Virus record (IMG/VR): IMGVR_UViG_3300036766_000385
Coordinates: 1-48,511 of that record
Reading direction: 5' to 3' (one strand)
DNA from: a virus
DNA length: 48,511 nt
Shown here one piece after another: positions 1 through 48,511 of this stretch. The position numbers were made by a program, and so were the translations under genes. The stretch's first letter is position 1, and every line of letters begins with the position of its first letter. The notes beneath the pieces were generated by a model that was not told the origin of the DNA, ran no database searches, and worked only from the letters and a program-made list of their open reading frames with translations.

Positions 1-244
1 CCCTCGTTACTCGCATTGAGCACGCAATAGCGGTCTTGCGACGCCCTTCCATAGCGCATAACCATGTACGCCCACTCGGCAAGATTAGCACGTGCTAACT
101 CGCCCCCAAAGCTCGCCCAACGGTTTGCGCTATGCAGGGTCCGCTGACTCATCCGCATTGACCAACGCTGATTATGGACGACCATTTGAGCAAACCGCGC
201 AAGATGTATCGAGTTCGCGAACGCATTCGTTCCGATGTTGATAT
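1..244. repeat. Terminal direct repeat, left copy (circular assembly overlap)
   Basis: Identical to 48268-48511 except base 128 (c here, t at 48395). The repeat sits inside the amidoligase gene and ends without any packaging-like feature, so it is most simply an assembler overlap showing a circular map, with a real variant between reads. Confidence 0.9.
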
Positions 245-2900: not shown

Positions 2901-3007
2901 ATGTAGGGTTGCTCACGCTCAATATGTAGGGTATGTATGACTATTTAGAAAGTCCCTTGAGAGATTCTCGCGTAGAGAGTTTCCGATATTCCCTACATAC
3001 CCTACAT
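2901..3007. repeat. Operator/iteron-like inverted repeats
   Basis: atgtagggtatgta at 2924-2937 is perfectly inverted at 2994-3007 (14 bp). The octamer atgtaggg occurs twice on the plus strand (2901, 2924) and twice on the minus strand (2991-2998, 3000-3007). A 9-bp palindrome gagattctc (2961-2969) lies between the arms. Such clustered symmetric sites are typical of a repressor or initiator protein. Which protein binds is unknown. Confidence 0.7.
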
Positions 3008-3087
3008 ACCCACCATCAATAGAACGGATGTTCATAGCCTTCGACCCAAGATGGTCAACTTTCGCAAAAAGCCGTCATACCCGTCAT

Positions 3088-3112
3088 AGCTGGGCGACAC
3101 GATGTCCGCCAG
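3088..3112 (+). repeat. 25-bp exact copy of part of the 43944-44762 gene
   Basis: The 25 bases beginning agctgggcgacacgatgtcc are identical to 44368-44392. That second copy lies inside a leftward coding gene, where the minus strand encodes AGGHRVAQ. Flanks do not match. A rightward transcript of the control region would be perfectly complementary to that gene's mRNA over 25 nt. Confidence 0.85.
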
Positions 3113-3140
3113 GCCCTTCACCCCATGGCTAACTCCGTGC

Positions 3141-3157
3141 GAGCCTGTATAGGCGAG
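3141..3157 (+). repeat. 17-bp repeat, copy 1
   Basis: gagcctgtataggcgag, with internal symmetry gcct-gtat-aggc. A second exact copy is at 3764-3780. This copy lies just before the extended -10 box at 3162, so it may be an operator or an RNA hairpin in the early rightward leader. Confidence 0.75.
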
Positions 3158-3161
3158 AAGG

Positions 3162-3170
3162 TGCTACGAT
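3162..3170 (+). promoter_or_regulatory. Extended -10 promoter candidate for the replication genes
   Basis: TGCTACGAT, followed by gtatgt, fits a TGn extended -10 box 49 bp before the first rightward gene. The same TGCTA-NN-AT pattern is seen at 21850 and 29622 and, on the minus strand, at 44800. There is no good -35 at 17 bp; the 17-bp repeat occupies that region. Confidence 0.45.
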
Positions 3171-3689: not shown

Positions 3690-3710
3690 CGGTCCTCCTG
3701 TGTCGTCTCC

Positions 3711-3831
3711 CCGCCAGTAGACCAACGGAAGAGACGTGAACCGCAAGGACTCGCGTCTGGTGTGAGCCTGTATAGGCGAGCATTGTCAGCCCGACAAGGG
3801 AAGAATCCCGGTTCGACTCCGGGCTGGCGGG
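3711..3831 (+). ncRNA. tRNA-like element with an enlarged core
   Basis: Bases 3711-3717 (ccgccag) pair perfectly with 3824-3830 (ctggcgg), and the pairing continues outward by two G-C pairs. A canonical T arm precedes the 3' strand: cccgg (3807-3811), loop ttcgact, ccggg (3819-3823). T8-A9 follow the acceptor. Between acceptor and T arm there are 89 nt instead of about 41, and no standard anticodon arm is found. Instead there are an 8-bp hairpin (3732-3739 with 3751-3758) and the second copy of the 17-bp repeat. It could be a tRNA carrying an insertion, a tRNA relic or a tRNA mimic. No CCA is encoded. Confidence 0.5.
3764..3780 (+). repeat. 17-bp repeat, copy 2
   Basis: Exact copy of the segment at 3141-3157, here inside the enlarged core of the tRNA-like element. 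Unlike copy 1, it is not followed by an extended -10 box. Confidence 0.75.
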
Positions 3832-3909
3832 GAACCATATGGGGCCTGCGTTGAATAGCCGTCAATGGATAACCTCCTCGATGCAGCGAGTCGGCAGCCC
3901 CTCTATCTG

Positions 3910-4040
3910 TTGCGGGTGGTACCCGCAATGCTCTGGCGCACAGCCGGTCAACCGGCAGCATCGTTATTCGCCTCCCCTTCGGAGGACGGGTCACCGTTAC
4001 AGCGCTCACCACGCGACCAAACCCGAGATGTGTGCGCCAG
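3910..4040 (+). ncRNA. Candidate multibranched RNA leader of the primase gene
   Basis: An 8-bp hairpin at 3910-3917/3921-3928 is followed by a 10-bp perfect closing helix, 3933-3942 with 4031-4040. Inside are a gccgg-tcaa-ccggc hairpin (3943-3956, stacked directly on the closing helix), a cctcc/ggagg hairpin (3971-3985) and a helix 3987-3991/4021-4025. The result is a four-way junction of about 108 nt that stops just before the primase ribosome site (AGGAG at 4054-4058). That position suggests control of primase translation. No known riboswitch family is recognised. Confidence 0.45.
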
Positions 4041-4063
4041 GGCTTTATCACATAGGAGACCGT

Positions 4064-4897
4064 ATGACGAGTGAACGGCAAAGCCTGGTTGAGGCCGCTC
4101 AGCGATATCTGAGTATGGGTTTCAAGATTATCGCTTTGACTGGGAAAGCTCCTAACGGGAGGGTGCATCCACATGGCCTCAGGGATGCTTTAGATACTGA
4201 CGCGTATGTTACGGAAGAGTTACTACCCAAACTTGTACAATATTTCAATCATCCGTCTACGACGGGTATCGGTATCCTGACGACCTGGCCGCTCGTCGTC
4301 GTGGATATCGATGGTGAGGATGGCGCGCAGGCGTGGAAGACGCTCGTCGGGGATGAGTACATGCCCGACCGTTGGGTCGCCAAGACGCAGCGGGGACTGC
4401 ATCTCTACTTCTTTTCTATTGAACGGGTCGGTTCGATGAAGTTGGCTCCGCTGTTGGACCTCAAGGGCGAAGGCGGCTATGTCGCCGCACCGCCATCCCT
4501 GCACCCCGATGGGCATCGCTACGAATGGCTGTTGCCGCCTGATGAATGTTGGATGATTGAAGTCCCTGCGCGACTTGCCGAGCGCATCCGAGCTCATCTC
4601 TTTGACCAGGAACGCCGTATTGTGCGTTCTGCACAACAGAAACGCATTCGCCATGCGCCACTGGAAGACGGTGTACTATGGGCCTCGTGGGGGTATGATG
4701 GCATCATCAAGGGCATGCTCGATGCAGATGAGGGCGAACGCAATCACTATTTATTTTGGGCCGCAGCCACGATGGCCGAGGAGGGTGCCTTGGAGGAAGA
4801 GTTTGAATCCCTACGTGCCGCAGCGCTGGATGCCGGTTTGACGCATCTGGAGACGAAACGCACAATCCGTAGCGCTAGGCGTGGACATGGCGAGTGA
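4064..4897 (+). CDS. Prim-pol type primase (bifunctional primase/polymerase N-terminal domain)
   Basis: 277 aa. The start at 4064 is set by AGGAG 5 nt upstream. The acidic metal-binding motif is VVVDIDG (D81, D83). TQRGLHLYF (H113) and DLKGEGGYVAAPPSLHPDG match the second and third catalytic motifs of archaeo-eukaryotic-type phage/plasmid prim-pol domains. The protein would make primers, and perhaps DNA, at the phage origin. It overlaps the following helicase gene by about 11 bp. The pair is equivalent to the fused primase-helicases of P4-like replicons, here split into two proteins. Confidence 0.88.
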   Translation: MTSERQSLVEAAQRYLSMGFKIIALTGKAPNGRVHPHGLRDALDTDAYVTEELLPKLVQYFNHPSTTGIGILTTWPLVVVDIDGEDGAQAWKTLVGDEYMPDRWVAKTQRGLHLYFFSIERVGSMKLAPLLDLKGEGGYVAAPPSLHPDGHRYEWLLPPDECWMIEVPARLAERIRAHLFDQERRIVRSAQQKRIRHAPLEDGVLWASWGYDGIIKGMLDADEGERNHYLFWAAATMAEEGALEEEFESLRAAALDAGLTHLETKRTIRSARRGHGE

Positions 4898-6368
4898 AAT
4901 CGTCTTTGGGGCACAATCAGCAGGCGGGGAAGATTTCAAGCAGGCTGAATGGCTAGCCGAAAAACTTGGCGGAGCGTGGCGGTACGACTTTACGGCAAAA
5001 CAATGGCATCATTTTGATGGGGTGCGTTGGGCGATGGATAGTACTGGACAGGTGATGCGCACGGTTGCTACTGCGGCAGCTAATACGTTGAAGGTTGGAG
5101 TAAACGATGTAGCATTACAGAAAGCCCTGCTTCGTCTGTTCAATATCGCGTCCGTCAATAAGGCCCTGGAAGCACTGGCGACCCTGGATGGGTATGGGAC
5201 CGATGGTTCAGACTGGGACCAGGATATCAACCTGCTCGGAACGAAGAGTGGTATCGTTGACTTGCGATACAATCGTCTCATCAAGGCCACGCCAGACCAA
5301 CTCGTCACACGTAGTACGGGAACGGTATTTGAACCCATCTCCGGTCCGGAGGATTTCCGTCGAGTGGCACCGGAGTTCATGGAGTTCTTACTGGAAGTGA
5401 CTTCGGACTACGATGAAACTCCGGATGTCGGGCAGGCATCCTATATCCTCCTGTGGTTCGGGGCGAGTTTGTTCGGGTTTACTCCTGAACAGCGATTTCT
5501 GCTCATGACTGGGGGCGGCGGCAATGGTAAGGGGGCATTGAGGCATGCCATTATGCAGGCCGTGGGCGAATATGCGCATATGGCCGATTCTAATATGTAC
5601 TCGCGCTCGAAGTTCGGACCTGCGCGCTCGGATGGTCCGCGTGCCGACCTGATAAAGTTGAAGGGTAAGCGCATCGTGTTCTGTTCTGAGCCCGATAAAG
5701 GACAGTTCAACGAAGAGATGCTCAAGGCGCACACCGGCGGTGACATCATCACGGCCCGTGACCTTTTCTCTCGGGCAAGTCAGCAGATTTCATGGGAGCC
5801 AACGCATAGTATCACATTCCTCGTGAACGATGCTCCCTCTATTGAGGATATCGGCTCCTCGATGGTGCGCCGCTTGATGGTGGCTGACTTTCGACACCAT
5901 TACGAGGGAAAAAATGAAGACAAGGAGATGTATGGATACCCTGATGCCAAGTTGGACCGGGAGAAATCTGGTATCCTGTCTATCTTGTGTTGGTCAGCAA
6001 AGGCATGGTACGACCAGTGGAAGGGTGGTCATGGTGGACTAGAGCTGCCCGCTCGGGTGATTGAGCAGTCCAAGCAGTTCATCGAGCGCAATGACCCGAT
6101 TTCCGAAGCCCTGCGCGAGGCATTTGAGTTTAGTGCAGAGTTCTCTTGTGCCGGTCTGGTTGCCTACAGAACATATCAGGAGTGGCATGCCCGTTCGGGG
6201 CAGGATGGAGAGCCTTTATCCAATCCGAAGTTCGCAGAGGCGTTGATAAAGAGGAACTTTCACAAGGACCGCACGATGAAGAGTGTCATTTGGAGGGGTC
6301 TCAAGCCACTTTCTGCCGTAAAACTCGCTGAACGAGAGGGCGACGAGTCCGACGAGGATGACGCATAG
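4887..6368 (+). CDS. Superfamily 3 / D5-type replicative helicase
   Basis: 493 aa from the ATG at 4887 (a GTG at 4881 is also possible). It has a D5-like N-terminal domain followed by an ATPase core. Walker A is GGGGNGKGA (residues 209-217). Downstream are the acidic segment RIVFCSEPD, the sensor-like stretch SITFLVND and the arginine-bearing SSMVRRLMVADF. The C-terminus, about 130 aa, is helical with an acidic tail. It unwinds DNA for the prim-pol just upstream. The phage has no polymerase gene, so host polymerase is presumably recruited. Confidence 0.88.
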   Translation: MASEIVFGAQSAGGEDFKQAEWLAEKLGGAWRYDFTAKQWHHFDGVRWAMDSTGQVMRTVATAAANTLKVGVNDVALQKALLRLFNIASVNKALEALATLDGYGTDGSDWDQDINLLGTKSGIVDLRYNRLIKATPDQLVTRSTGTVFEPISGPEDFRRVAPEFMEFLLEVTSDYDETPDVGQASYILLWFGASLFGFTPEQRFLLMTGGGGNGKGALRHAIMQAVGEYAHMADSNMYSRSKFGPARSDGPRADLIKLKGKRIVFCSEPDKGQFNEEMLKAHTGGDIITARDLFSRASQQISWEPTHSITFLVNDAPSIEDIGSSMVRRLMVADFRHHYEGKNEDKEMYGYPDAKLDREKSGILSILCWSAKAWYDQWKGGHGGLELPARVIEQSKQFIERNDPISEALREAFEFSAEFSCAGLVAYRTYQEWHARSGQDGEPLSNPKFAEALIKRNFHKDRTMKSVIWRGLKPLSAVKLAEREGDESDEDDA

Positions 6369-6791
6369 ATGGCGAAAAACGGCGAGGCCCCCTTGCGGGG
6401 GCCTTTGTGTCCTCATTGTGGTGTACGGCATCGTTCTATCACGGAGAATGACTGCCTGGACCGTCATCTAACCGAGCGAACCCTACAGAACCGTGTGGTT
6501 GGGCGTGCTAGACGACGAGGATGGACGGTTGCACATGCCGGAAAAGGTTGGGTCGGGGACGAGGGTCAGATGGTGACGCAGATGCCTGCCGGCTGGCCAG
6601 ACCTCATGTTGTTCAAGCCAGGAATGCTACATCCGGTCATTGCCATGGAGTTCAAAAGGGAACTTGGTGTGGTTTCCGACGACCAATGGAAATGGCTCCA
6701 GCTTATGAACGATTGTGGAATACCCGCCGTGGTCATTCGGCCATCGGACCTCAGACAAGGCCGCGTGACTGCTATACTAATGGGAAGGTAG
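6369..6791 (+). CDS. VRR-NUC domain nuclease
   Basis: 140 aa, starting directly after the helicase stop. An N-terminal CPHC pair with following H/C residues (CPHCGVRHRS) precedes a VRR-NUC fold: TLQNRVVGRARRRGW, GWPDLMLF (catalytic D), AMEFKRE (catalytic E-x-K) and a final VVIRPSDL strand. These PD-(D/E)XK-like enzymes cut branched or structured DNA, and phage versions sit with replication genes as here. It probably resolves replication or recombination intermediates. Confidence 0.85.
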   Translation: MAKNGEAPLRGPLCPHCGVRHRSITENDCLDRHLTERTLQNRVVGRARRRGWTVAHAGKGWVGDEGQMVTQMPAGWPDLMLFKPGMLHPVIAMEFKRELGVVSDDQWKWLQLMNDCGIPAVVIRPSDLRQGRVTAILMGR

Positions 6792-6796
6792 GTAAC

Positions 6797-7012
6797 ATGT
6801 CTCTGATTCAACATGGCGTCCGTTGCAATGCATGCGGTGACCGTATCTTTTCGAACTCCCGGCATGATTTTGTGACCTGCTCTTGCGGGGATACGTTTAT
6901 TGACGGTGGTTTCGATTACACCCGAGTCGGGTTTACTACTGAAACTGGGCCGCCCGAGAGTATCGAACGCCTTTTACAGAGACCACCCAAGCAGAGATTT
7001 CGTTCTAGATGA
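6797..7012 (+). CDS. Conserved small zinc-ribbon-like phage protein
   Basis: 71 aa, ATG at 6797 behind GGAAGGTAGG. The sequence HGVRCNACGDRIFSNSRHDF followed by VTCSCGD contains CxxC and CxC pairs, arranged like a zinc ribbon. I recognise this as a common small phage protein of unknown function. Its stop overlaps the next start (ATGA). It sits between replication and packaging genes. Confidence 0.75.
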   Translation: MSLIQHGVRCNACGDRIFSNSRHDFVTCSCGDTFIDGGFDYTRVGFTTETGPPESIERLLQRPPKQRFRSR

Positions 7013-7560
7013 GTGGTCGCGCCTGTACTATCTGCGCTAATCCAACCCTGCGTAGCATGGTTGAACATTCTTACGAGGCCGATATTTCTAATGCTGGTAT
7101 TTCTCGTCAACTAGCAGAGTTTTCCGATAATCCGCCCAGTCCCGAGGTTCTCGGTCGCCATAGGAAACATTACGTGCCCGTTATCCCGAAAGAGCAGCGA
7201 CAAACCAAACGTGATGCGGCTGCCATCATCAAGGGTCGCGTGCTCGATGCGCTTGAGGCTCGCCCCGACCGTGCGGGGCAGTGGGTCGGTGAGGGCGCTG
7301 ATAAGACTTGGCTGCCTGCATCAGACATTCTCGATAAGGACTTACAGCCTGCCCTCAATACTGCGCTCGGGGCGCAGAAAATCGAGGATGCACGTGAGAA
7401 GGTCAAGTCGAAGCAGGGGAGTGCTGAACTTGCCTTTGCCATCATCGGGATGATTGCGGGTAAATCGTTACCCGTTCTCGAACTGGAGGATGGGCTGACC
7501 ATTGAGGGTGAGTTTCACGACGACGATGAAGATGATGACGCGGTAGACGGGGATGCCTAA
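7009..7560 (+). CDS. Putative terminase small subunit
   Basis: 183 aa, start coupled to the previous stop (ATGA). The N-terminal third, with CTICANP, a helix-turn-helix-like ADISNAGISRQLAEF and the closing LGRHRKHYVP, resembles a DNA-binding fold. The tail is very acidic (DDDEDDD). It overlaps the large terminase gene by 8 bp, the usual place of the small subunit, which recognises the packaging site. Assignment is by position and HTH pattern. The 35049-35276 protein has a similar C-x2-C ... RHRRNH layout. Confidence 0.6.
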   Translation: MSGRACTICANPTLRSMVEHSYEADISNAGISRQLAEFSDNPPSPEVLGRHRKHYVPVIPKEQRQTKRDAAAIIKGRVLDALEARPDRAGQWVGEGADKTWLPASDILDKDLQPALNTALGAQKIEDAREKVKSKQGSAELAFAIIGMIAGKSLPVLELEDGLTIEGEFHDDDEDDDAVDGDA

Positions 7561-9115
7561 AGTCAGTGACCGGCGAACTGACTACCTACTGAGCGCGCGA
7601 TTCAACCTGACCTATAAGCAGGTTGCCGCGGCCCGCAAACTGCGTACTTTCGCACGGGAGCGACTGGGTATCGAGTTGCATCGCGGTCAGTTGGCATTCG
7701 GGGGTATGGTTCTCGCGCGTGATGCGCAATCCCTCAGCTCGGCCGAGTTCCTGACCTTACTCCTCGCCTCGGGCAACCAGGCGGGCAAGACATCATTGAT
7801 GGCTGTGCTCATCATCTTCTGCTGCCTCGATAAGACGAACAGATTGAAGCCGCTGAGTGAATCAGAGGCTATAGGTTGGCTGCGCTCTGAGTACCATTGG
7901 TGTCATTTCGGTATCTCGCAGGAGGTAGCCGACCTGGTGTTCAGCGACATCGTGCGTTTGTTGTCGGGCACTCACGGCGGGCAAGGGGCGCGGGGGTGCC
8001 CGCTCACGGCCGCTGGTCCTGTGGCATCCTGGGATACGAAGGAATATGGGGACTACCGCTGGGTCCGGTTTGCCCCTGAATGGGGTGGCGCGGAGGTGCA
8101 TTTCCGTACCACGGGGGAAAAATCCCTTGGGCAGTTGGGTAAGGTTCTACACGGCATCTCATTCGATGAGGCGGGAATCGAGCGAAACCTGAACTTCCTC
8201 ATCAAAGAGGTTTTCAGCCTGCGGCGTATCTCGACCGGCGGACAGCTCATCATGATGTCTACGCCGTCCGAAGACCTTGGGTCTGATTTCGCCGACAACT
8301 GGGACCTGGGTAATCCTGAGAATCCCAAACGACTCACTTCCTGGTGTTCTCTGCGGATGTCTACCCGTGACAATATCGGATACGGTCTTGACCAAGTGAT
8401 GTTCGACCGTCTGACTGCTGATATGGACGAGCGGACCATCAAACAGAATATCGACGGTGAGTTTCTCCAGGCGAAGGCTGCCTACTTCAATGGTGCGAAC
8501 GTGGAGGATGCCTTCATTTTGGGTATGCCGGAACGCGCGACCGTGAAAGCGAAAGGCGTATATCTACAGGGAGTTGACCCGGCGAAACAAGCAGACAGCG
8601 CATGGTCTATCGTACTCAAGATTGTGGCTAACCCGGAGAAGGGTTACGAGGACCGCCCTTTTCTGGTCGGCGTGCGGGCCGAGCAGCGTCGTGGCCAGAA
8701 GTCCACGGAGACACTGGTGGCCCTGGCCGTGGATGCTTTCAATGCGTATCATGTCGGGCGTCTCAGTAGTTCGTGCTATACTGCATTAGACGCCACGGGA
8801 TTTGGTGGTAAAATGTTCAGGGAAGCTCTTGAGGGCGACATCCCAAATCTGACCAATATCGAGTTCGGCGGGACGATTCAAAAAAAGCGGATGCTTCTCG
8901 GGGACCTCCGCACCATCATTGACGAGGGCCGTCTTCTCCTCCCGAGAGAGGGCATCTGGCTCCAAGTAAGGAAACAACTACTTGCCTACCGCCTTGAAGA
9001 CCGAAAACTGGAACAGGATGCGGTCATGGCTCTAGTTTGTGCTGTCCATATCCTGCGACGCACCCCTGTTGATGGTTTGGCATCGGTGCCGTTTGATATG
9101 ACACGGGCCGTCTAA
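7553..9115 (+). CDS. terL: Terminase large subunit
   Basis: 520 aa, within the usual length. The ATPase half has Walker A GNQAGKT (74-80) and Walker B ISFDEAG (202-208). The RNase H-like nuclease half shows LQGVDPA (D342), ALDATGFGG (D413) and EQDAV (D489) as the metal-binding acidic triad. It pumps DNA into the prohead through the portal and cuts it. It overlaps the small subunit gene and, by one base, the portal gene. Confidence 0.95.
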   Translation: MPKVSDRRTDYLLSARFNLTYKQVAAARKLRTFARERLGIELHRGQLAFGGMVLARDAQSLSSAEFLTLLLASGNQAGKTSLMAVLIIFCCLDKTNRLKPLSESEAIGWLRSEYHWCHFGISQEVADLVFSDIVRLLSGTHGGQGARGCPLTAAGPVASWDTKEYGDYRWVRFAPEWGGAEVHFRTTGEKSLGQLGKVLHGISFDEAGIERNLNFLIKEVFSLRRISTGGQLIMMSTPSEDLGSDFADNWDLGNPENPKRLTSWCSLRMSTRDNIGYGLDQVMFDRLTADMDERTIKQNIDGEFLQAKAAYFNGANVEDAFILGMPERATVKAKGVYLQGVDPAKQADSAWSIVLKIVANPEKGYEDRPFLVGVRAEQRRGQKSTETLVALAVDAFNAYHVGRLSSSCYTALDATGFGGKMFREALEGDIPNLTNIEFGGTIQKKRMLLGDLRTIIDEGRLLLPREGIWLQVRKQLLAYRLEDRKLEQDAVMALVCAVHILRRTPVDGLASVPFDMTRAV

Positions 9116-11100
9116 TGTCACTCAATTGGTTTGGTACAGGCGGTGAGACTGTTTTTGCTGATATGACGCTCCTCAAGGGCGTCTTGCATGCTGCCGATGA
9201 TGAGACGAAACAGGTCATCTATGGTCTTTCGCGGCGGATTGCAGCTATCAAGCCTAATCAGGACCGTCTCCGGCAATGGTGCGACCGAGCTGATAAGTTG
9301 TACTACGCCGAAGACATGACCAAGGGTGGCGCAGACTTGTGGGCATCAGACCCATCCGCCAAGGAGCCCGGACGTTCTCACGTATCAGTCAATACGCCTG
9401 CGGTATATGTGGACGTACCCTCGGCATTGCAGGCCGTCGAACCCATCGAAAATATGCTGGCTACTGATACAACTCCTGAGGCACGAACTGCTGCCGCAGC
9501 CATCGAGCGTCTCTACACAGCCTGGAAACAATCCGAAGACTTCGACCTCAAGTTCCATAAAGCTATCACGGTAAAGAGCCTGTACGGCATCACTGCTGGG
9601 CGCGTCTACTGGGATGCAAACGAAGGCGATAAGGGCAAGGTATGCGTGCAGGTCGTGGAACAACCGCGCAACCTCCATCTCGGGTTCAAGACCGATGAGT
9701 ATGAGGAACTGGAGTGGGCCGCATATGTCACTCGCTATGAACCTAACGCACTCGCCGAGGCGTTCGGCGTAGATGTGATTCCCTTCAAACAGGATGATGG
9801 TACGGTATTGCCGCTCGTTCAGGCCCATGATTGGGACAGTGAGCCCCGCCGCCCGTGGCTGGCGATGGGCGATGCTCGCGTCGAAGTATGGGATTACTGG
9901 TATCGTCAGCCGGTATGGCGCGGAACGAAGTTCGTGCGCATGGATACATACAACGTCGTCATCGCGGGTAACTTCATCATTCGTGGTCCTATCAAGTACA
10001 AGGAATACGAAGGCGCACTGCCGTATCTGCCGCTCTATAACACATTCGTTCCCGGTCTCCCTGGTGGGCGGTCCGACCTCTATGACGTAGAGCCACTAAT
10101 CCGTGAAAAGTACGAGCGTATCACTGCTGGATCACAAATGATTGCCAATGGTGTGGCCGGTGACTACTGGCAGTTGGTCGGTCCGGATGCGCCTCTGCGT
10201 GTTCCGGCTGGTCTCAAGCCTATCCGTAATGAGTTGGTCGGCCCTGGTCCTGGTAACCGTATCGAGGTGATTACGCCATTCATCGCACAGTTCCAGTTGG
10301 AGCAGTATCTTGGACGTATCGACCGAGAACTAGCGGTCGTTTCCGGATTGAACGAGTTGTTGTTGAGTCTTGCTCCGGCGTCCGTGCTTTCATCCTCGAA
10401 GGCCATCAATGCGCTTATCTCTAACTACGAGTCGCGTATGTCTATTCGTCGTCGTCTTCTTTACAAATGGCGTCGTGATGTATGGGAGTTGACGCTAAAG
10501 GTATGGGCGGCAAGGGATGCTACCGTCAAGATTATCGTTGGCAACGGTGGCGGCATTCTCGATATCATTGACCCCAGCCTGTCGCCGCGCGATGAGCAGG
10601 AGACAGCCATTCGCGCTGCCAATCTCGTCAATGCGAAACTGTGGTCGCAGGCACGCGGCATGGATGCCGTTGGCGTGGATGACCCGGAGACGGAACAGCA
10701 ACTCATTCGCGAGGAAAGTACGGATGCTACGCTCTGGCCCGAGCGGGTGCAGGTCATGGCGCAGTTGCTTGCGGCCTTGCAGTCGCTCGGTTTGAACGCC
10801 CCGCAGGGTGCCCAGGCACAGGCTCAGGGGCAGATGACTTCGGGACAGGCCGACCTCCGTGCCGCTCTTGGCGCGGGGACGCCTAGCGTGATGCCCGGCG
10901 CGCCCGGAGCTGGTGGGGAACCGAGCATGATGGGTCAAACACCTCCGCTCCCGGGTCTTCCGCCCGAGGCAGGGGGCGCTCCATTCGCGCAGCCGCCGGT
11001 AGCTGCTAGTGCCCAGCCCCCGCTGTTGCAGGGTATGATTCAGGGCGGTAAGGTGAAGTCCAGAATACTTACGCAAAGCAAGTTGGGGAGACGTGGCTAG
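9115..11100 (+). CDS. Portal protein
   Basis: 661 aa, start fused to the terminase stop (TAATG). It has the layout of long phage portals: an N-terminal WCDRADKLYY region, SHVSVNTPAVYVDVPSALQAVEPI, a wing with aromatic strands, and helices around GLNELLLSLAPASVLSSSKAINAL, a stretch typical of portal stems. The C-terminal ~130 aa are Gln/Pro/Gly-rich and low in complexity. The dodecameric portal is the packaging vertex and binds TerL and the tail. Assignment rests on position, length and these segments. Confidence 0.85.
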   Translation: MSLNWFGTGGETVFADMTLLKGVLHAADDETKQVIYGLSRRIAAIKPNQDRLRQWCDRADKLYYAEDMTKGGADLWASDPSAKEPGRSHVSVNTPAVYVDVPSALQAVEPIENMLATDTTPEARTAAAAIERLYTAWKQSEDFDLKFHKAITVKSLYGITAGRVYWDANEGDKGKVCVQVVEQPRNLHLGFKTDEYEELEWAAYVTRYEPNALAEAFGVDVIPFKQDDGTVLPLVQAHDWDSEPRRPWLAMGDARVEVWDYWYRQPVWRGTKFVRMDTYNVVIAGNFIIRGPIKYKEYEGALPYLPLYNTFVPGLPGGRSDLYDVEPLIREKYERITAGSQMIANGVAGDYWQLVGPDAPLRVPAGLKPIRNELVGPGPGNRIEVITPFIAQFQLEQYLGRIDRELAVVSGLNELLLSLAPASVLSSSKAINALISNYESRMSIRRRLLYKWRRDVWELTLKVWAARDATVKIIVGNGGGILDIIDPSLSPRDEQETAIRAANLVNAKLWSQARGMDAVGVDDPETEQQLIREESTDATLWPERVQVMAQLLAALQSLGLNAPQGAQAQAQGQMTSGQADLRAALGAGTPSVMPGAPGAGGEPSMMGQTPPLPGLPPEAGGAPFAQPPVAASAQPPLLQGMIQGGKVKSRILTQSKLGRRG

Positions 11101-31372: not shown

Positions 31373-32469
31373 GCGTTCAGGGAGCTAACTGCTCCTGCTT
31401 CACCTGTGCTCTCCGGCGTAACGGGCGGCGCATCGTCCGCAAGATAGCTGTTGGACTACTCGCCGGAGTGTTGGTACTCGGTGGCCTGGCTGGCAGCGCG
31501 GCTGTCATAGACCGCTCGTTCTCCGAACGCGCTACTTGGTTCGACAACCTCCTGCGTCTTGCCGCTCTGGCGGACAGGGAATACGACACCCTGGACGTGA
31601 AATGGTCTATGGTCGGACCGCAATCCTGGATGGACCTTGGTCAACTGATCAAGGAAATCGTCTACCAGATTGATGAAGAGGGTGCCACGACCCAACTCAT
31701 CCTGCCGACTGATATCGGGTTCGTGGACTATGGCCCTGGGCGTCGCTCGGCCGTTGCTGGCACCTATGACCCGAGCTACGGTATCATTGTCCTGAACGAA
31801 CGCTTCCTCACGCCCTCCTGGGGCGAGCAATCATGGTTCAGCACGCTGGTTCACGAACTCGTCCACGCGCAGGGTTACTTCGTCGGTTCCTCAGCCACGC
31901 TGGAATCGCAGACGGAGATTGTTGCCACTGAGGTTGTCGCCGCAATGGCGAATCTCAACTATCCCGGCGCGCGTGCCGACTTGCTCAGTGGTCTGCGCGG
32001 AGATGCCCTCGCTGTGGCGTACTACATCGCGCGTTTCAGTGGCAGTCCTATCCACACGACCAACACGGACAACCAGAACCTCACGGTTTCCTTCGCGGGT
32101 GGCGACCAAGCGATGCTGGCGCGCTGGCAATCCGTGCGACAGTCAATCCTGACCCCCACCGAACTAGCCCGCTCTGACAAACGCATCCGCTGGTGGGAGG
32201 AACGACCCCTTGAGTATGCGGAAGTCCTCGGCAAGTATGCCGTCACCACGCTTACGATGGAACTGGATGCTTCCTGTGGAACGGGCGTCATGCCCGAACA
32301 GTTCAGTCAGTATCCACTGATTGAAGGCGGCATGCAACTCACCTGGAATCCGAAGACGGGTACGTGGGAAATGCAGGACGGAGCCTATTGGGGCGAAGAA
32401 GTATGGCTGCCACCCTTGTTGATGGATGACCTACGTTATGTGCTACACAACGAACTCGGCTACTGTTGA
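31369..32469 (+). CDS. Membrane-anchored zinc metallopeptidase
   Basis: 366 aa, GTG start overlapping the holin stop (GTGA). A Cys-bearing N-terminus (CSCFTC) is followed by a basic stretch and a membrane segment (IAVGLLAGVLVLGGLAGSAAVI). The outside domain has STLVHELVHAQGY, an HExxH site, with E in ESQTEIVATEV as likely third ligand. Placement right after muramidase and holin suggests it cuts wall peptides or surface proteins during lysis or superinfection exclusion. Its target is unknown. Confidence 0.75.
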   Translation: MSVQGANCSCFTCALRRNGRRIVRKIAVGLLAGVLVLGGLAGSAAVIDRSFSERATWFDNLLRLAALADREYDTLDVKWSMVGPQSWMDLGQLIKEIVYQIDEEGATTQLILPTDIGFVDYGPGRRSAVAGTYDPSYGIIVLNERFLTPSWGEQSWFSTLVHELVHAQGYFVGSSATLESQTEIVATEVVAAMANLNYPGARADLLSGLRGDALAVAYYIARFSGSPIHTTNTDNQNLTVSFAGGDQAMLARWQSVRQSILTPTELARSDKRIRWWEERPLEYAEVLGKYAVTTLTMELDASCGTGVMPEQFSQYPLIEGGMQLTWNPKTGTWEMQDGAYWGEEVWLPPLLMDDLRYVLHNELGYC

Positions 32470-32633
32470 TGCGACTCATCACGTGGCTCGTCTTCGTGAT
32501 GGCCCTCTACACGGGCCTCGTAGCGCTGGTGCGGTTCCTGCCCGCAGCAGAGCGGCCCCTGGGGTTCCTGGCGGCTGCCATCGTGTTCTACGCTGTCACG
32601 CTGGCCGTTCCTGCCATTCTCGGTAGGAAGTAA
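32469..32633 (+). CDS. Small two-helix membrane protein
   Basis: 54 aa, TGATG overlap with the metallopeptidase gene. Two hydrophobic segments (LITWLVFVMALYTGLVALV and LGFLAAAIVFYAVTLAVPAI) are joined by a charged turn (RFLPAAERP). Last gene of the rightward arm. Likely an accessory holin or antiholin. Its stop touches the 3' end of the convergent tRNA-Thr. Confidence 0.65.
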   Translation: MRLITWLVFVMALYTGLVALVRFLPAAERPLGFLAAAIVFYAVTLAVPAILGRK

Positions 32634-38344: not shown

Positions 38345-39099
38345 TGGTGACGCCGACCCCTCAAAGTAACACCAAGGAGGTAGGCCAACATAGCGAGAAC
38401 GAAGCCAGTGAGGACTCCCAGGAAGCCCTTAGGAGTAACAATCGAAGGTGCAGCCTCCGCGTCAGTCGCGGGAAGCGTAGCAATCGGGGTCACGTTCCTC
38501 GGGAGTGCAGTAGCAGAGGCCGTGGGCAGTGGTGAGACTGTCGGGATAGGGGTCTCGGTCGCATCCGGTGTTGCAGTCAGCGTTGGACTCGGCCCCACAG
38601 AGGCCGTCGCACTCGGTTCGGGTGTCGGACTTGGCGTCACCCCGGACGACGGCGAGGGCGTGAAGGATGCCGATGGTGAGGGCGAAGGTGTAGGCGGTGA
38701 TGAAGGCTCCGATGACGGAGACGGTTCGACGGAAGGCTCTAGTGATGGTGTTACCTCCGGTGATGGTGAGGATGTTACCTCTGGACTAGGCGACGGACTA
38801 GGCGACGGACTAGGCGACGGACTAGGCGACGGCTCGACACATGCGCCGAGGTCATCCTGCTCATGACCCGCCCGCCGCGTGCCATCCTCATTGAAGTGTC
38901 CGGCGGGACCGTAGACGGTAGGCCAGGCAAGGGTTAGGGTGATATACTGCGTGGTCCCTGCCAGTCCCGCAGCGTGACAGATAGTCACCTGTGGCTGCGG
39001 CGTAGGCGGTGGATTAGGCGGACCACCCCCCGCGAAAGACCCCCCGGCAAGTAGTAGCGTGAGCGCCAACGCGCCCACCAGAGCAGTGAAACGTCTCAT
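38341..39099 (-). CDS. Secreted Ser-Pro-rich surface protein with sortase-like tail
   Basis: About 252 aa from ATG 39099 (AGGAG 12 nt upstream; an ATG at 39111 touches the ribosome site). It has a signal peptide (MRRFTALVGALALTLLLAGGSFA), then a compact domain with VTICHAAG ... GHFNEDGTRRAGHEQDDLGAC, whose CHA...GH...GH...C pattern is known in secreted proteins of actinobacteria. A long Ser/Pro/Thr linker follows, partly from a 12-bp tandem repeat. The end has LPATD, a membrane segment (FLGVLTGFVLAMLAYLLGV) and RGRRHQ, like an LPxTG wall-sorting signal. It may alter the host surface during infection. Confidence 0.7.
   Translation of the reverse strand: MRRFTALVGALALTLLLAGGSFAGGGPPNPPPTPQPQVTICHAAGLAGTTQYITLTLAWPTVYGPAGHFNEDGTRRAGHEQDDLGACVEPSPSPSPSPSPSPSPSPEVTSSPSPEVTPSLEPSVEPSPSSEPSSPPTPSPSPSASFTPSPSSGVTPSPTPEPSATASVGPSPTLTATPDATETPIPTVSPLPTASATALPRNVTPIATLPATDAEAAPSIVTPKGFLGVLTGFVLAMLAYLLGVTLRGRRHQ
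38783..38830. repeat. 12-bp tandem repeat, 4 copies
   Basis: Four perfect copies of ggactaggcgac, coding Ser-Pro-Ser-Pro on the minus strand within the surface-protein gene. Copy number is likely variable by replication slippage. Confidence 0.9.
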
Positions 39100-43648: not shown

Positions 43649-43944
43649 CAGTCGCCTCCCATCAGTTGCGGTAGATGTTTTGTCTCGTAGATATGTCGAG
43701 CATACACCTCGGCCAGCCCGGTGCCATTGGGCAACTTGTACCAGTCTTCACGCTGGCCCTCATGAGAATGGAGGGTCGTCGTATCCGCCGCAGCGGGCGC
43801 AGTGGCATAGAAGCCACACGTACAACTGATCCAATACTCACCGGCTCCCATGCGAATGTCCTTGATGACATGGGCCAAGCGCGGCAGAGCTCGGCCCCCA
43901 TCTGAACGGTTCCAGAACGCGTCCGGGTTTGTCGGGCGACTCAT
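43648..43944 (-). CDS. Hypothetical protein with Cys/His site
   Basis: 98 aa, TGATG overlap with the previous stop (GTG one codon earlier possible). HVIKDIRMGAGEYWISCTCG has a CTC pair and HSHEG follows, possibly a small metal site. No family recognised. Confidence 0.6.
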   Translation of the reverse strand: MSRPTNPDAFWNRSDGGRALPRLAHVIKDIRMGAGEYWISCTCGFYATAPAAADTTTLHSHEGQREDWYKLPNGTGLAEVYARHIYETKHLPQLMGGD

Positions 43945-44762
43945 CACGCTCTCAGCAGTTTGAGAACAGCTACGAGCGTACCGATTGAGCCTTCAATCTC
44001 ACGCGCCAGCACTCCCGAGTCCTCCCATGACAACTCGCCAATGTCGATTGCCAGGGCTCCATTCGCCACGACACCCTGTAGCTCTGTGACAGCGGCCACT
44101 GCTTTGCGGATGCTGGCAATGCCGTCAAACTCTGCCTCGACAGGCACCTCGCGCGGAATAGGCTTGCGAACTCGCACGCCCTCCGGCGCGTCGCCGGGCG
44201 AGATAGCGGCACGTGATACGCGGGTGCCCTCGGGCAAGTCCTCGATGACTTTCGTAAGAGCAGCGATAGATGCATGTTGACGGGCAAGTTGCTGCCAACG
44301 TCCCGCTTGCTTGATAGCGCTCTCACCCTCAAAACCAAGGTCAGCCAAAGAAACCATCCCCCTCGCAAGCTGGGCGACACGATGTCCGCCAGCCTCGGGC
44401 ATGCGTTCCTCGTCCTTGTCCATGCGGATGAGTTCCGCGCCCGCCTTGTATTCGGACACGAGCACGATGGCAGCCGCCGGGTTCTCGGCCTCGATGCCGA
44501 GACTGCGGTCATGGATGTAGCCCTGCACGGCTTTCGCCAGCGCGCGGGCATCCTTGATGTCGCCGATAGTAGTGGCCTGCGCGACCTGATAGGCCACGAG
44601 GCCAATCATGTTCGCTGCCTGCACCATCAGCGCGTCGCGGTCAGTCGGGTCAACGTCAGCCCCGATGCCGAGCTTAGTCAGAGCAACCCGTCGTTCCTCT
44701 GCGCTGTCATTCTGCGCAGGGTCCGCCATCGCGGCTAGTTTACGCACTCTGCCGTTTGTCAT
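43944..44762 (-). CDS. Helical protein resembling 'A-E-RR-GE' ParB-associated-like proteins
   Basis: 272 aa from ATG 44762 (GTG at 44768 also possible). ARALAKAVQGYIHDRSLGIE ... EYKAGAELIRMDKDEERM ... SLADLGFEGESAIKQAGRWQQLAR follows the layout of phage and plasmid proteins with a helix-rich 'rAE-r-GE-L ... L-dLGi---s--WQ-lA' pattern often found beside partition or methylase genes. Likely DNA-associated; role unknown. The codons for AGGHRVAQ are the second copy of the 25-bp repeat also found at 3088. Confidence 0.55.
   Translation of the reverse strand: MTNGRVRKLAAMADPAQNDSAEERRVALTKLGIGADVDPTDRDALMVQAANMIGLVAYQVAQATTIGDIKDARALAKAVQGYIHDRSLGIEAENPAAAIVLVSEYKAGAELIRMDKDEERMPEAGGHRVAQLARGMVSLADLGFEGESAIKQAGRWQQLARQHASIAALTKVIEDLPEGTRVSRAAISPGDAPEGVRVRKPIPREVPVEAEFDGIASIRKAVAAVTELQGVVANGALAIDIGELSWEDSGVLAREIEGSIGTLVAVLKLLRA
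44368..44392 (+). repeat. 25-bp repeat, coding copy
   Basis: Identical to 3088-3112, inside the 43944-44762 gene. As that gene is read on the minus strand, a plus-strand RNA from the control-region copy would pair perfectly with its message here. Confidence 0.85.
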
Positions 44763-44796
44763 ATACACCGTCCTCTGATTGGGTGGTGGTCATATC

Positions 44797-45110: not shown

Positions 45111-45568
45111 GACGCACTCCCGAAGATGGTCCGACCGTTCCACGTCGAGTCCGGGCACTCGGCCCGATGCTGGGCTTCGAGAGCAGGCGCGTAGGCCGCC
45201 CGTGCCGTGTTGTAGGCCACCCACGCCGTGCTGTAGGCCGCCCACGCCGTGTTATAGGCCGCCCGTGCCGTGCTGTAGGCCGCCCACGCCGTGTCGTAGG
45301 CCGCCCGTGCCGTGCTGTAGGCCGCCCACGCCGTGTTGTATTCGCCCGGTAGTGGCCCCACCACCGGGCGAAACTCGCGCAGACGGCGGGCGCGCTCGTG
45401 TTCCGGCTTATTGGACAGGATGTAGGCAATGCGGCTTTCAGCAGGCTCGGTGAGGGTCTCGATGAGCGTCTCGTGATGCAGACACCAGACAGCATCGCCT
45501 ATATTCGAGTTAGCGAAGGCAGCGCGGCAGGCTGCCGCTTCGATTTTGATGGATTGCAAAACAGTCAC
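45107..45568 (-). CDS. Tyr-heptad-repeat protein (8 heptads), paralogue of the gene at 1123
   Basis: 153 aa, GTG start overlapping the previous stop. The N-terminal ~70 aa form a folded helical region with Cys/His residues (CLHHETLIETL). Residues 77-132 are eight perfect-length heptads of the type YNTAWAA / YSTARAA, alternating Trp and Arg, coded by 21-nt DNA repeats at about 45173-45340. The C-terminus ECPDSTWNGRTI matches the end of the 1123 gene. The repeat may form a coiled coil or a rigid spacer. Confidence 0.65.
   Translation of the reverse strand: MTVLQSIKIEAAACRAAFANSNIGDAVWCLHHETLIETLTEPAESRIAYILSNKPEHERARRLREFRPVVGPLPGEYNTAWAAYSTARAAYDTAWAAYSTARAAYNTAWAAYSTAWVAYNTARAAYAPALEAQHRAECPDSTWNGRTIFGSAS
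45173..45340. repeat. 21-bp tandem repeats (42-bp higher-order unit)
   Basis: About eight units of the taggccgcccacgccgtgtt type in the 45107 gene, alternating cccacg and cccgtg to give a 42-bp period. Three related units lie at about 1275-1338. The two arrays are close on the circle (about 4.2 kb apart) and share runs of 20 bases or more. Confidence 0.8.
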
Positions 45569-46365: not shown

Positions 46366-47337
46366 CTAAGCCTCTGTCAGCTCGTAATCCATGGACCGCT
46401 CCTCTTCGCGAGCATCATCTGCTTCGGCATCGGCACCGACGCGATGACTCATGTCGATATATGTGTTGCCGTCAATGCAATACACATCCCCGAATGTGTA
46501 GCACGTGTCACACATGACACTCTCGGGCCAATCGCCATCTTTCGAGCGGTCGATGTCCTTGACGGCCGTCAGGGTATGACCGCCGTTGAGGTACTGATAC
46601 GGTCGGCCTACAAGACGGTCCGGCAGATACGCGTCCTCGCCCGTCTTGGCCGGAATAGCGATGGGCGACTTGACGCCTATGGGCCATGTTTTTCTCGCCG
46701 CTCTTTCAGCGGCAGTCAGCGCCATACCCCAATCATCATCATCGCAGGCGGATAACTTACCCCCGTGATAGAGGTACGTCGTCGTAGGCTTGTGATTGGA
46801 TGAATACCACAGACCACCGTCCCACGTGCCATCTTTCTCTTGCAGGTTGACCGTTTCCGTAGCCGTCATGAGGACCAGCCGCGACCATCCGATAGACTGC
46901 TCGACAAGAAATGTGATGGCCTTGTCTGCCCACCAACGCGAGGGCAGATGCGCCAGCACGTCGCGAACGAAGACCTCTGTATCCGACTCACTGGTCTCCG
47001 TGTCAATATCAATGATGCCATTGTGAAACACGAACACGCGGCCCTCATGGGCATCCTGATACTCGAAGGGATGAGCATGCGATTGCGCGCTCGGGCCATG
47101 TGTGGCCATGCGGAAGTGCGCCACATACTCGATGTCGGAGCGCCGGTCCACGCGTTTGAGCGTCTTGCGAAACGCCTTTTTCTCGGCTGGCCCGAAACGC
47201 TTGGAGTACAACTGCCCAGCCTCGCGCCATGCGACCCCAAAACCATCGGGATGACGCTGGACAGCCGTGTCTATGACTTGTGTCGGAATGTTCGCCCCGC
47301 GACCTTTCGCGGTCGGGCGAAGCGCGATCATACACAT
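46366..47337 (-). CDS. Class II glutamine amidotransferase (Ntn hydrolase)
   Basis: 323 aa. The start is set at MCMIALRP so that the catalytic Cys is residue 2, as the family requires after Met removal. The open frame extends 14 codons further, overlapping the previous gene. AHFRMATHGPSAQSHAHPF and VFVFHNGIID are the glutamine-binding R-x-x-T-H and H-N-G motifs of YafJ/GATase_6 type domains. It hydrolyses or transfers the glutamine amide. The C-terminal ~120 aa carry extra Cys (CDTCYTFGDVYCID). Two genes upstream is the amidoligase; such pairs are reported for phage amidoligase systems. Confidence 0.85.
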   Translation of the reverse strand: MCMIALRPTAKGRGANIPTQVIDTAVQRHPDGFGVAWREAGQLYSKRFGPAEKKAFRKTLKRVDRRSDIEYVAHFRMATHGPSAQSHAHPFEYQDAHEGRVFVFHNGIIDIDTETSESDTEVFVRDVLAHLPSRWWADKAITFLVEQSIGWSRLVLMTATETVNLQEKDGTWDGGLWYSSNHKPTTTYLYHGGKLSACDDDDWGMALTAAERAARKTWPIGVKSPIAIPAKTGEDAYLPDRLVGRPYQYLNGGHTLTAVKDIDRSKDGDWPESVMCDTCYTFGDVYCIDGNTYIDMSHRVGADAEADDAREEERSMDYELTEA

Positions 47338-47347
47338 GATGGACGTG

Positions 47348-47617
47348 CTACCTACCTTCCTGCTGCCCATCGGCAGCATCTATGGGTGACCTCAGCGCGG
47401 TCATAAACGCATCGTATGCGGCTACTGAGGCATGCGCTGCTTCTGCACGACGCGCTATACCTTTCTCACGGATAGTCTGATATGCCTCCTCCACTTGCGT
47501 CGTAGGGCGATGCCATGATGGCTCGCGCGGTTCCGCGTGATTACGATAGCCTACAGCTTGTGCACGAGCGCGCAGAGCTAACAAGATGGGAGATTGACGG
47601 TCTATATCAAACATCAT
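47348..47617 (-). CDS. Small protein between amidoligase and amidotransferase
   Basis: 89 aa from ATG 47617, overlapping the amidoligase stop; it ends 10 bp before the amidotransferase start. RQSPILLALRARAQAVGYRN is followed by a helical, Ala/Glu/Arg-rich part (QVEEAYQTIREKGIARRAEA) and a polar tail ending GQQEGR. No family recognised. Its fixed place between the two amide enzymes makes it a candidate partner or substrate. Confidence 0.6.
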   Translation of the reverse strand: MMFDIDRQSPILLALRARAQAVGYRNHAEPREPSWHRPTTQVEEAYQTIREKGIARRAEAAHASVAAYDAFMTALRSPIDAADGQQEGR

Positions 47618-48511
47618 CGGATGCCTGCGGCCATTCGATAGCGGTCTGCTGTCCATAGCGTTCCGCATGAAGTATGCTATGAAACCCATCATGACCCACT
47701 CTCAACTCGCAGAACCACTCCCCACCGGGTCGCACATGACGACACATGCGTTCCGGGGGCGCCTCGTCATCCCAGTAGACACCCACATTCGGATACCCAT
47801 GCTGGCCGCTGTGACCCAACGTCAGCTCACAGTAGTATCCGACACCATCAGGCTGCTGGGAGTTACACGTCTCGTTCTCGTCGTCATAGTTCATACACTC
47901 ACCATCACGGCAGCCGTCACCACATTCACACGCATCATCCCGGTCATCTTCCCTCGCCTCATCCGGCTCATTAGTGAGGTCCGCGATGAGGTCCGGCTCT
48001 AAGATGATGGCTTCCGGTGCTAATACGAGGTCAGGATGCGGTATCTGTTCCTTCGTGGACTTATCGAACGCAGCACGAAACTTCTCGCGCATGAAGGACA
48101 TAAGTTCCGGATACTCGTCCGACTCAGCCACCCAGCGCATGAACGCACTTACCTGAATGCGATGCCCGCTATCACGAGTGTACTCCACCATCGCGGCGGT
48201 CCATTCCAGCTTCGCATAGAAACGGTCTATGCGCAGTGTGCCACGAGGTAAGCGAAACTCGATGCGTCCCTCGTTACTCGCATTGAGCACGCAATAGCGG
48301 TCTTGCGACGCCCTTCCATAGCGCATAACCATGTACGCCCACTCGGCAAGATTAGCACGTGCTAACTCGCCCCCAAAGCTCGCCCAACGGTTTGTGCTAT
48401 GCAGGGTCCGCTGACTCATCCGCATTGACCAACGCTGATTATGGACGACCATTTGAGCAAACCGCGCAAGATGTATCGAGTTCGCGAACGCATTCGTTCC
48501 GATGTTGATAT
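47607..48511 (-). CDS. GS-like amidoligase, C-terminal part with two zinc knuckles
   Basis: Continuation of the gene starting at 860. Within this stretch the stop is at 47607; bases 48268-48511 repeat 1-244. The catalytic domain ends near residue 360 (GRIEFRLPRGTLR at 288-300). An acidic linker follows, then a Cys-rich patch (CECGDGCRDGEC) and two copies of a C...CEL-x2-GH-x-G-x-H knuckle (C421/C433/H439/H443 and C462/C473/H479/H483). The same knuckle core occurs in the 1924-2340 protein. The knuckles may recruit the substrate or partner. The copies of codon 245 differ (Ala at 128, Thr at 48395). Confidence 0.88.
   Translation of the reverse strand, partial: INIGTNAFANSIHLARFAQMVVHNQRWSMRMSQRTLHSTNRWASFGGELARANLAEWAYMVMRYGRASQDRYCVLNASNEGRIEFRLPRGTLRIDRFYAKLEWTAAMVEYTRDSGHRIQVSAFMRWVAESDEYPELMSFMREKFRAAFDKSTKEQIPHPDLVLAPEAIILEPDLIADLTNEPDEAREDDRDDACECGDGCRDGECMNYDDENETCNSQQPDGVGYYCELTLGHSGQHGYPNVGVYWDDEAPPERMCRHVRPGGEWFCELRVGHDGFHSILHAERYGQQTAIEWPQASDDV
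48268..48511. repeat. Terminal direct repeat, right copy
   Basis: Second copy of bases 1-244. Removing it gives a 48,267-bp circle on which the amidoligase frame is continuous. Confidence 0.9.

Follow-up and report, generated by a model that had tools for sequence, protein, structure and literature searches.

A 25-bp repeat shared by a phage replication control region and a putative regulator gene: a candidate protein-binding dyad with paired counterparts in related phages

In phage lambda, the OR and OL clusters of dyad operators for CI repressor lie about 2.3 kb apart and are bridged by looping. In Bacillus subtilis, parS is found inside the parB gene spo0J, a dyad site within the gene of its own binder. 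The sections of the BstA report drawn on here describe a protein, encoded by a prophage and containing a DNA-binding-like domain, and a short cognate element, aba, in its own locus, the two being mutually specific between phages and affecting phage DNA replication (PMC8585504). The aba element is given there as 63 bp long, spanning the start codon and bearing terminal direct repeats (PMC8585504). Cluster A mycobacteriophages, according to the portion of a further report consulted, carry more than twenty 13-bp asymmetric stoperators, located at promoters and in intergenic gaps (PMC9283540). Judged by titles and the beginnings of abstracts, no article listed in searches of open-licence PMC described a phage intragenic operator or site with the arrangement noted here, in which a dyad-like sequence is found both in a replication control region and within a putative regulator gene of a virus. 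The stretch of DNA analysed, referred to as the window, is the entire 48,511-nucleotide record IMGVR_UViG_3300036766_000385.

The repeat and its two surroundings

Exact copies of AGCTGGGCGACACGATGTCCGCCAG were present on the plus strand at 3088-3112 and 44368-44392, as claimed in the original prediction, and its dismissal of chance was upheld by dinucleotide shuffles of the window, none of which (0/100) gave a match of such quality. No further copy with three or fewer mismatches to the 23-bp core was seen in the window, where the 25-mer was also the longest dispersed exact repeat, a 244-bp end repeat aside. Given this circular redundancy of the window (1-244 is the same as 48268-48511), closing the genome into a circle of 48,267 bp would put 6,987 bp between the copies, measured across the ends. 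The 25-mer was absent on exact search of viral_contigs and genome_contigs, collections that may omit records very near the window, and a nucleotide search of phages with both copy regions gave no match. The core is an imperfect dyad, CTGGGCGACA-CGA-TGTCCGCCAG, in which 8 of 10 arm pairs match; because 2.2% of sampled window 25-mers were equally symmetric, this dyad is by itself weak evidence.

Copy 1 (3088-3112, plus strand) is flanked on one side by an inverted iteron-like array and on the other by the replication operon's promoter. The array, a possible replication origin, extends from 2923 to 3008, its arms at 2923-2937 and 2994-3008 agreeing at 15 of 15 positions. About 52 bp downstream of copy 1 is the predicted -10 element (TGC TACGAT) of a rightward promoter at 3165-3170, which is a by-eye reading since a consensus promoter scan called nothing there; phages viewed by eye had TAnnnT (8/10) or CAnnnT (2/10) at a similar place. 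The rightward genes that follow from 3219 are, in order, P0002 (3219-3689, 156 aa), a primase-polymerase (4064-4897, the ORF being open from 3839; PF09250, E 1.3e-21), a D5-type primase/helicase (4881-6368; profile match to PF08706, E 2.3e-16) and then terminase. P0002 was without a family match and might be SSB-like. Searches with P0002 alone against viral_contigs and phages, and with the helicase against viral_contigs, returned nothing useful.

Other elements were also noted around this operon. A near-identical 21-bp repeat, GTGYGAGCCTGTATAGGCGAG (core GCCTGTATAGGC), occurs at 3137-3157, in the predicted P0002 promoter, and at 3760-3780, in a structured region before the primase gene, and is possibly a second operator. 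Ahead of the primase start (4064) is a gap of approximately 374 bp that contains strongly folded RNA at 3700-3845 (z -2.8) and 3918-4050 (z -3.1), the former with a T-arm-like GGTTCGACTCC, a 10-bp closing stem and AACCA. ARAGORN, with introns allowed, called no tRNA at 3700-3845; the equivalent position in G019 is occupied by a tRNA-Trp. Rfam at gathering scores returned only tRNAs and nothing useful for the control region. Inverted arrays of short repeats were seen upstream of P0002 in most members of a set made up of the window, G002-G006, G019, L030, L031 and L046, with a repeat unit that by eye differed phage by phage (TGTAGGGTA, TGGAGGGTA, GGTGACGGG and others). These arrays are likely origins, with iterons that also change between relatives.

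Copy 2 (44368-44392, plus strand) is, as had been predicted, within a leftward gene. This minus-strand ORF (43944-44768) encodes P0001, a predicted mostly helical protein of 274 aa (or starting from the ATG at 44762) that is unassigned to any family. That the gene is real was evident from a homolog in G001 (IMGVR_UViG_3300033233_000069) with 75% amino acid identity over all 274 residues; more distant homologs are present in G003, G002, G004, G006, G019 and a Synechococcus phage. The repeat coincides with a variable linker of P0001 (residues about 126-134, GGHRVAQL), which has a conserved part on either side, and amino acid identity to the G001 homolog was 96% for residues 1-117, 39% for 118-176, 91% for 177-209 and 66% for 210-274. 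As judged from these identities, a cassette of residues 118-176 (44241-44417, minus strand), comprising the linker and the predicted helices after it, is block-replaced between the two phages. At the linker position of G001 another dyad, TGGCAGGGC-n9-GCCCTGCCA, takes the place of the 25-mer. G001, the nearest relative, is a contig without the control region and was dropped before the counts given below.

There are phage proteins with the layout of P0001 in which a ParB-like helix-turn-helix follows the linker. None of the searches showed such a motif in P0001; no family or PDB-sequence search found a DNA-binding domain, ParB matches were absent from Pfam, PHROGs, NCBIfam and PDB sequences, and no PADLOC 2.0.0 defence family matched the P0001 family (8 members of A4) at E<=1. 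The AlphaFold model was poor (pLDDT 51) and unsuited to structure search. The P0001 family was found in 0 of 23 further relatives' records, in no plasmids and, among 195 genomes from the phylum to which G019 belongs, in 2, one of them G019. Another contig of G019 gave a further, distant match and G086 gave one; neither was used in counts.

Further features of the window include a 22-nt inverted repeat (91%, 16 bp exact) at 32567-32588 and 44460-44481, the second arm being inside P0001. Tandem repeats of 21 bp were noted at 45163-45358 (seven register copies) and 1266-1377 (three), and a perfect 12-bp tandem repeat, GGACTAGGCGAC, at 38783-38830. A match to class-II glutamine amidotransferase (PF13230, E 5.6e-7) at 46366-47379 was 90% identical in G001.

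Paired dyads in related phages

The best match of the linker dyad elsewhere in the same genome was in the control region of the window (G000), G002, G004 and G019. In G002, the arms CTTCAAC-n11-GTTGAAG were present in both linker (6654) and control region (13714) with 0 of 14 mismatches, the next best match having 2, and in G004 the linker dyad GGTGACTC-n7-GAGTCACC matched the control region with 3 of 16 mismatches, the next having 4. In G019, a phage-like contig from an Anaeromyxobacter MAG bin, the control dyad GGAAGGCGT-n9-ACGCCTTCC at 10635 was matched best, outside its own position, by the P0001 linker at 2484 (2/18 mismatches); starting from the linker dyad, the control region matched with 5 of 24 mismatches and the next locus with 6. 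Arms and spacing were kept in the diverged phages while the spacer changed. By eye, the control dyad adjoined the -35 element in both G002 (TTGACC-17-TATACT) and G019 (TGGACT-17-TACATT).

A comparable dyad, AACGCGGGT-n9-ACCCGCGTT (9-9-9), was noted in the linker of the P0001 homolog from Synechococcus phage Yong-M2-251, where it is among six entries for perfect dyads with 9-bp arms in 58.8 kb, two of which overlap. Its second copy (2/18 mismatches, next best 5) lies in the annotated gene for the terminase large subunit, so the partner site need not lie at a replication promoter. Ssp-JY39, which has a P0001 homolog identical to that of Yong-M2-251, was dropped before counts.

The pairs were first noticed from the control side and then tested without choosing sites. 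In this pre-set test, linker DNA, bounded by protein motifs, was compared with the 250 bp upstream of the P0002 homolog, and all other 250-bp windows of the same genome served as the null. At 25 bp, pairing was evident in the window (p=0.0005), G002 (0.0006), G019 (0.0005) and G004 (0.015) and was not seen in G003 (p 0.80) or G006 (p 1.0). The combined Fisher value without the window was 2.6e-5 at this word length, the one among seven tried that was taken from the length of the finding itself, and was 0.24 at 20 bp, 0.022 at 22 bp, 7e-4 at 24 bp and about 1e-6 at 28 and 30 bp. Of the 6 phages with both loci, 4, window included, thus paired a dyad at the promoter with one in the gene of the putative regulator, and the pairing recurred with other sequences in 3 of the 5 besides the window. 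The comparison of relatives for co-variation that the original prediction had proposed favoured a paired site: linker and control scores within one phage, out of 25, were 25 for the window and 20, 19 and 20 for G002, G004 and G019 (in no stated order), as against a maximum of 18 of 25 among 49 cross-phage pairs, but two of the six phages were unpaired (G003 and G006, with own-phage scores of 16 and 15 of 25).

Several results bear on how these values are to be read. Two dyads match each other more easily than two random sequences do. Synonymous shuffles of the linker reached the observed score in 1 (G000), 9 (G002), 1 (G004) and 279 (G019) of 1000 trials, which indicates that much of the match in G019 comes from protein sequence alone. 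A test of 350 bp of control region against the whole ORF was less strong, with Fisher values of 1.3e-5 at 28 bp and 0.96 at 18 bp when the window was excluded, and in this test the G006 score fell at the linker edge, tied with another locus. Comparison of the control region and P0001 by longest common word gave no clear signal outside the window, and the symmetry of a dyad says little on its own in genomes this rich in GC, the linker arms ranking at p 0.009-0.998 (Fisher 0.003 over 8). In G008 there was no pairing with a regulator gene; the best match was to a 1020-aa ORF at 31425. G007, G009, G010 and G011, in which no P0002 homolog was found, were left out, and a score of 21 of 25 for G005, which is without P0001, was kept out of the count as its segment was picked once the site was known.

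A different arrangement was noted in G005 (L137-L139), in which the near-perfect palindrome GACTCGAnnTCGAGTC occurred at six distinct places after removal of end redundancy, a pattern resembling a dispersed operator system. Two of these were by the control region (49642 and 50337), two between genes (27062 and 40882), one after a stop codon (17940, read by eye) and one (7720) inside a gene of 227 aa that, like P0001, is upstream of an exonuclease gene and that scored 16.3 bits against DUF3102 (PF11300), below the Pfam cut-off of 24.4. Since this gene takes up 684 bp of a total of about 49,000 bp, size alone would place one or more of four such sites in it in about 6% of cases, for which reason the intragenic palindrome is supporting evidence and not proof. 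At 6690-6974 and 7333-8016, G005 has tandem related genes for the DUF3102-like protein, with 36% identity.

Weighing the explanations

The reading that we favour, at a probability of roughly 0.55 on the basis of sequence comparisons, is that a dimeric phage protein, probably P0001, recognises the 25-mer as a dyad DNA site, which is positioned both at the replication promoter and in the gene of this likely binder. The two unpaired phages are among the main limits on this reading. A DNA-level site bound by protein fits best because the arms and the distance between them are conserved as the spacer sequence drifts, and because the control copy is upstream of the promoter; P0001 would be the simplest binder given that the site lies in its gene and that linker and helices are replaced along with the site. 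Of the three options put forward originally, it is the protein-binding site that the analysis supports, and the other two lost ground. A trans-acting antisense RNA, by which RNA from the control region would pair with P0001 mRNA, has the right strand geometry, since rightward RNA over copy 1 is complementary to the minus-strand gene. It is nevertheless a very improbable reading: a consensus scan found no rightward promoter upstream of copy 1, the rightward promoter predicted by eye is downstream, so that copy 1 would not be transcribed from it, and relatives share arms and spacing and not the full complement. A captured gene fragment does not account for two fixed places at which the paired sequence differs from phage to phage. 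Passive copying, in which illegitimate recombination placed a functionless short patch of one locus into the other, is unlikely on similar grounds. The window match, which is exact through non-symmetric positions and limited to two copies, does look like a recent copy, but in G002, G004 and G019 these two loci pair different sequences, of which the arms are retained and the spacers altered.

Control at the RNA level is more doubtful than passive copying. A hairpin in two transcripts, bound by protein or affecting translation, would be in keeping with the ability of looped dyads to fold (-8.6 and -9.1 kcal/mol in the window), but the z values are only -1.4 and -1.2, and the control copy is upstream of the predicted promoter, so that it would be outside that transcript, and by eye lies against the -35 element in G002 and G019. 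Two copies in direct orientation, built on a dyad core and about 7.0 kb from each other when counted across the ends, could also suit a site used by a recombinase or mark the limits of an inserted 7-kb segment. There is little to commend such a recombination or attachment site, however, as G001 carries the same genes between the two places, and hence no inserted segment is indicated, the 25-mer was in no genome of genome_contigs, and an integrase was matched by none of the window proteins scanned, which were a subset of the ORFs.

On the favoured reading of a protein-bound dyad, we infer binding at both places by a dimeric phage protein, likely P0001, and the effects that binding may have. At the control copy, P0001 might govern expression of the replication module (P0002, primase-polymerase and helicase) or origin firing, and at the intragenic copy, in DNA coding for the linker just before the putative DNA-binding helices, it might control its own gene through a roadblock or through looping across about 7 kb. 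Between phages, site sequence and protein specificity would change together. We tentatively suggest, as a conceivable though less probable extension, that P0001 has a self-tagged specificity cassette, the linker-coding DNA being its own binding site and the promoter site following by copying. Recombination that swaps the specificity segment would then carry the matching site along, and the window (25/25) would represent recent copying and the older pairs would retain arms only. If so, a phage regulator could shift its DNA specificity and yet keep its targets, the site being written in its own linker-coding DNA; the uncharacterised P0001 family and the G005 gene would gain a role in control of primase-polymerase replication modules; and sites of uncharacterised regulators could be found from sequence alone, by looking for dyads that a regulator gene shares with a promoter.

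Comparison with known systems

Like the CI operators of lambda, the window dyads are kilobases apart and could be bridged by one protein; unlike them, they are single sites, about 7 kb apart, one of which is intragenic. As with parS in parB, the window dyad is inside the gene of its putative binder, but P0001 matches no ParB family and showed no ParB domain. The repressor sites of cluster A phages, as presented in the part of the report cited, resemble those of the window in lying both at a promoter and at other genomic places (PMC9283540). Compared with the many asymmetric stoperators so described, the window site is dyad-like and has two copies, one of them intragenic, and the six palindromes of G005 are nearer to the stoperator pattern than is the window pair. 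Homology of P0001 to BstA was not indicated by PADLOC 2.0.0, a library that may hold no BstA model. The element that we favour as new is the co-varying intragenic copy of a candidate protein-binding site. Among phage proteins that have a cognate DNA element in their own locus, BstA with aba comes closest as a precedent, as far as the sections drawn on describe it; unlike aba, the window site is a mid-gene dyad with a second copy elsewhere.
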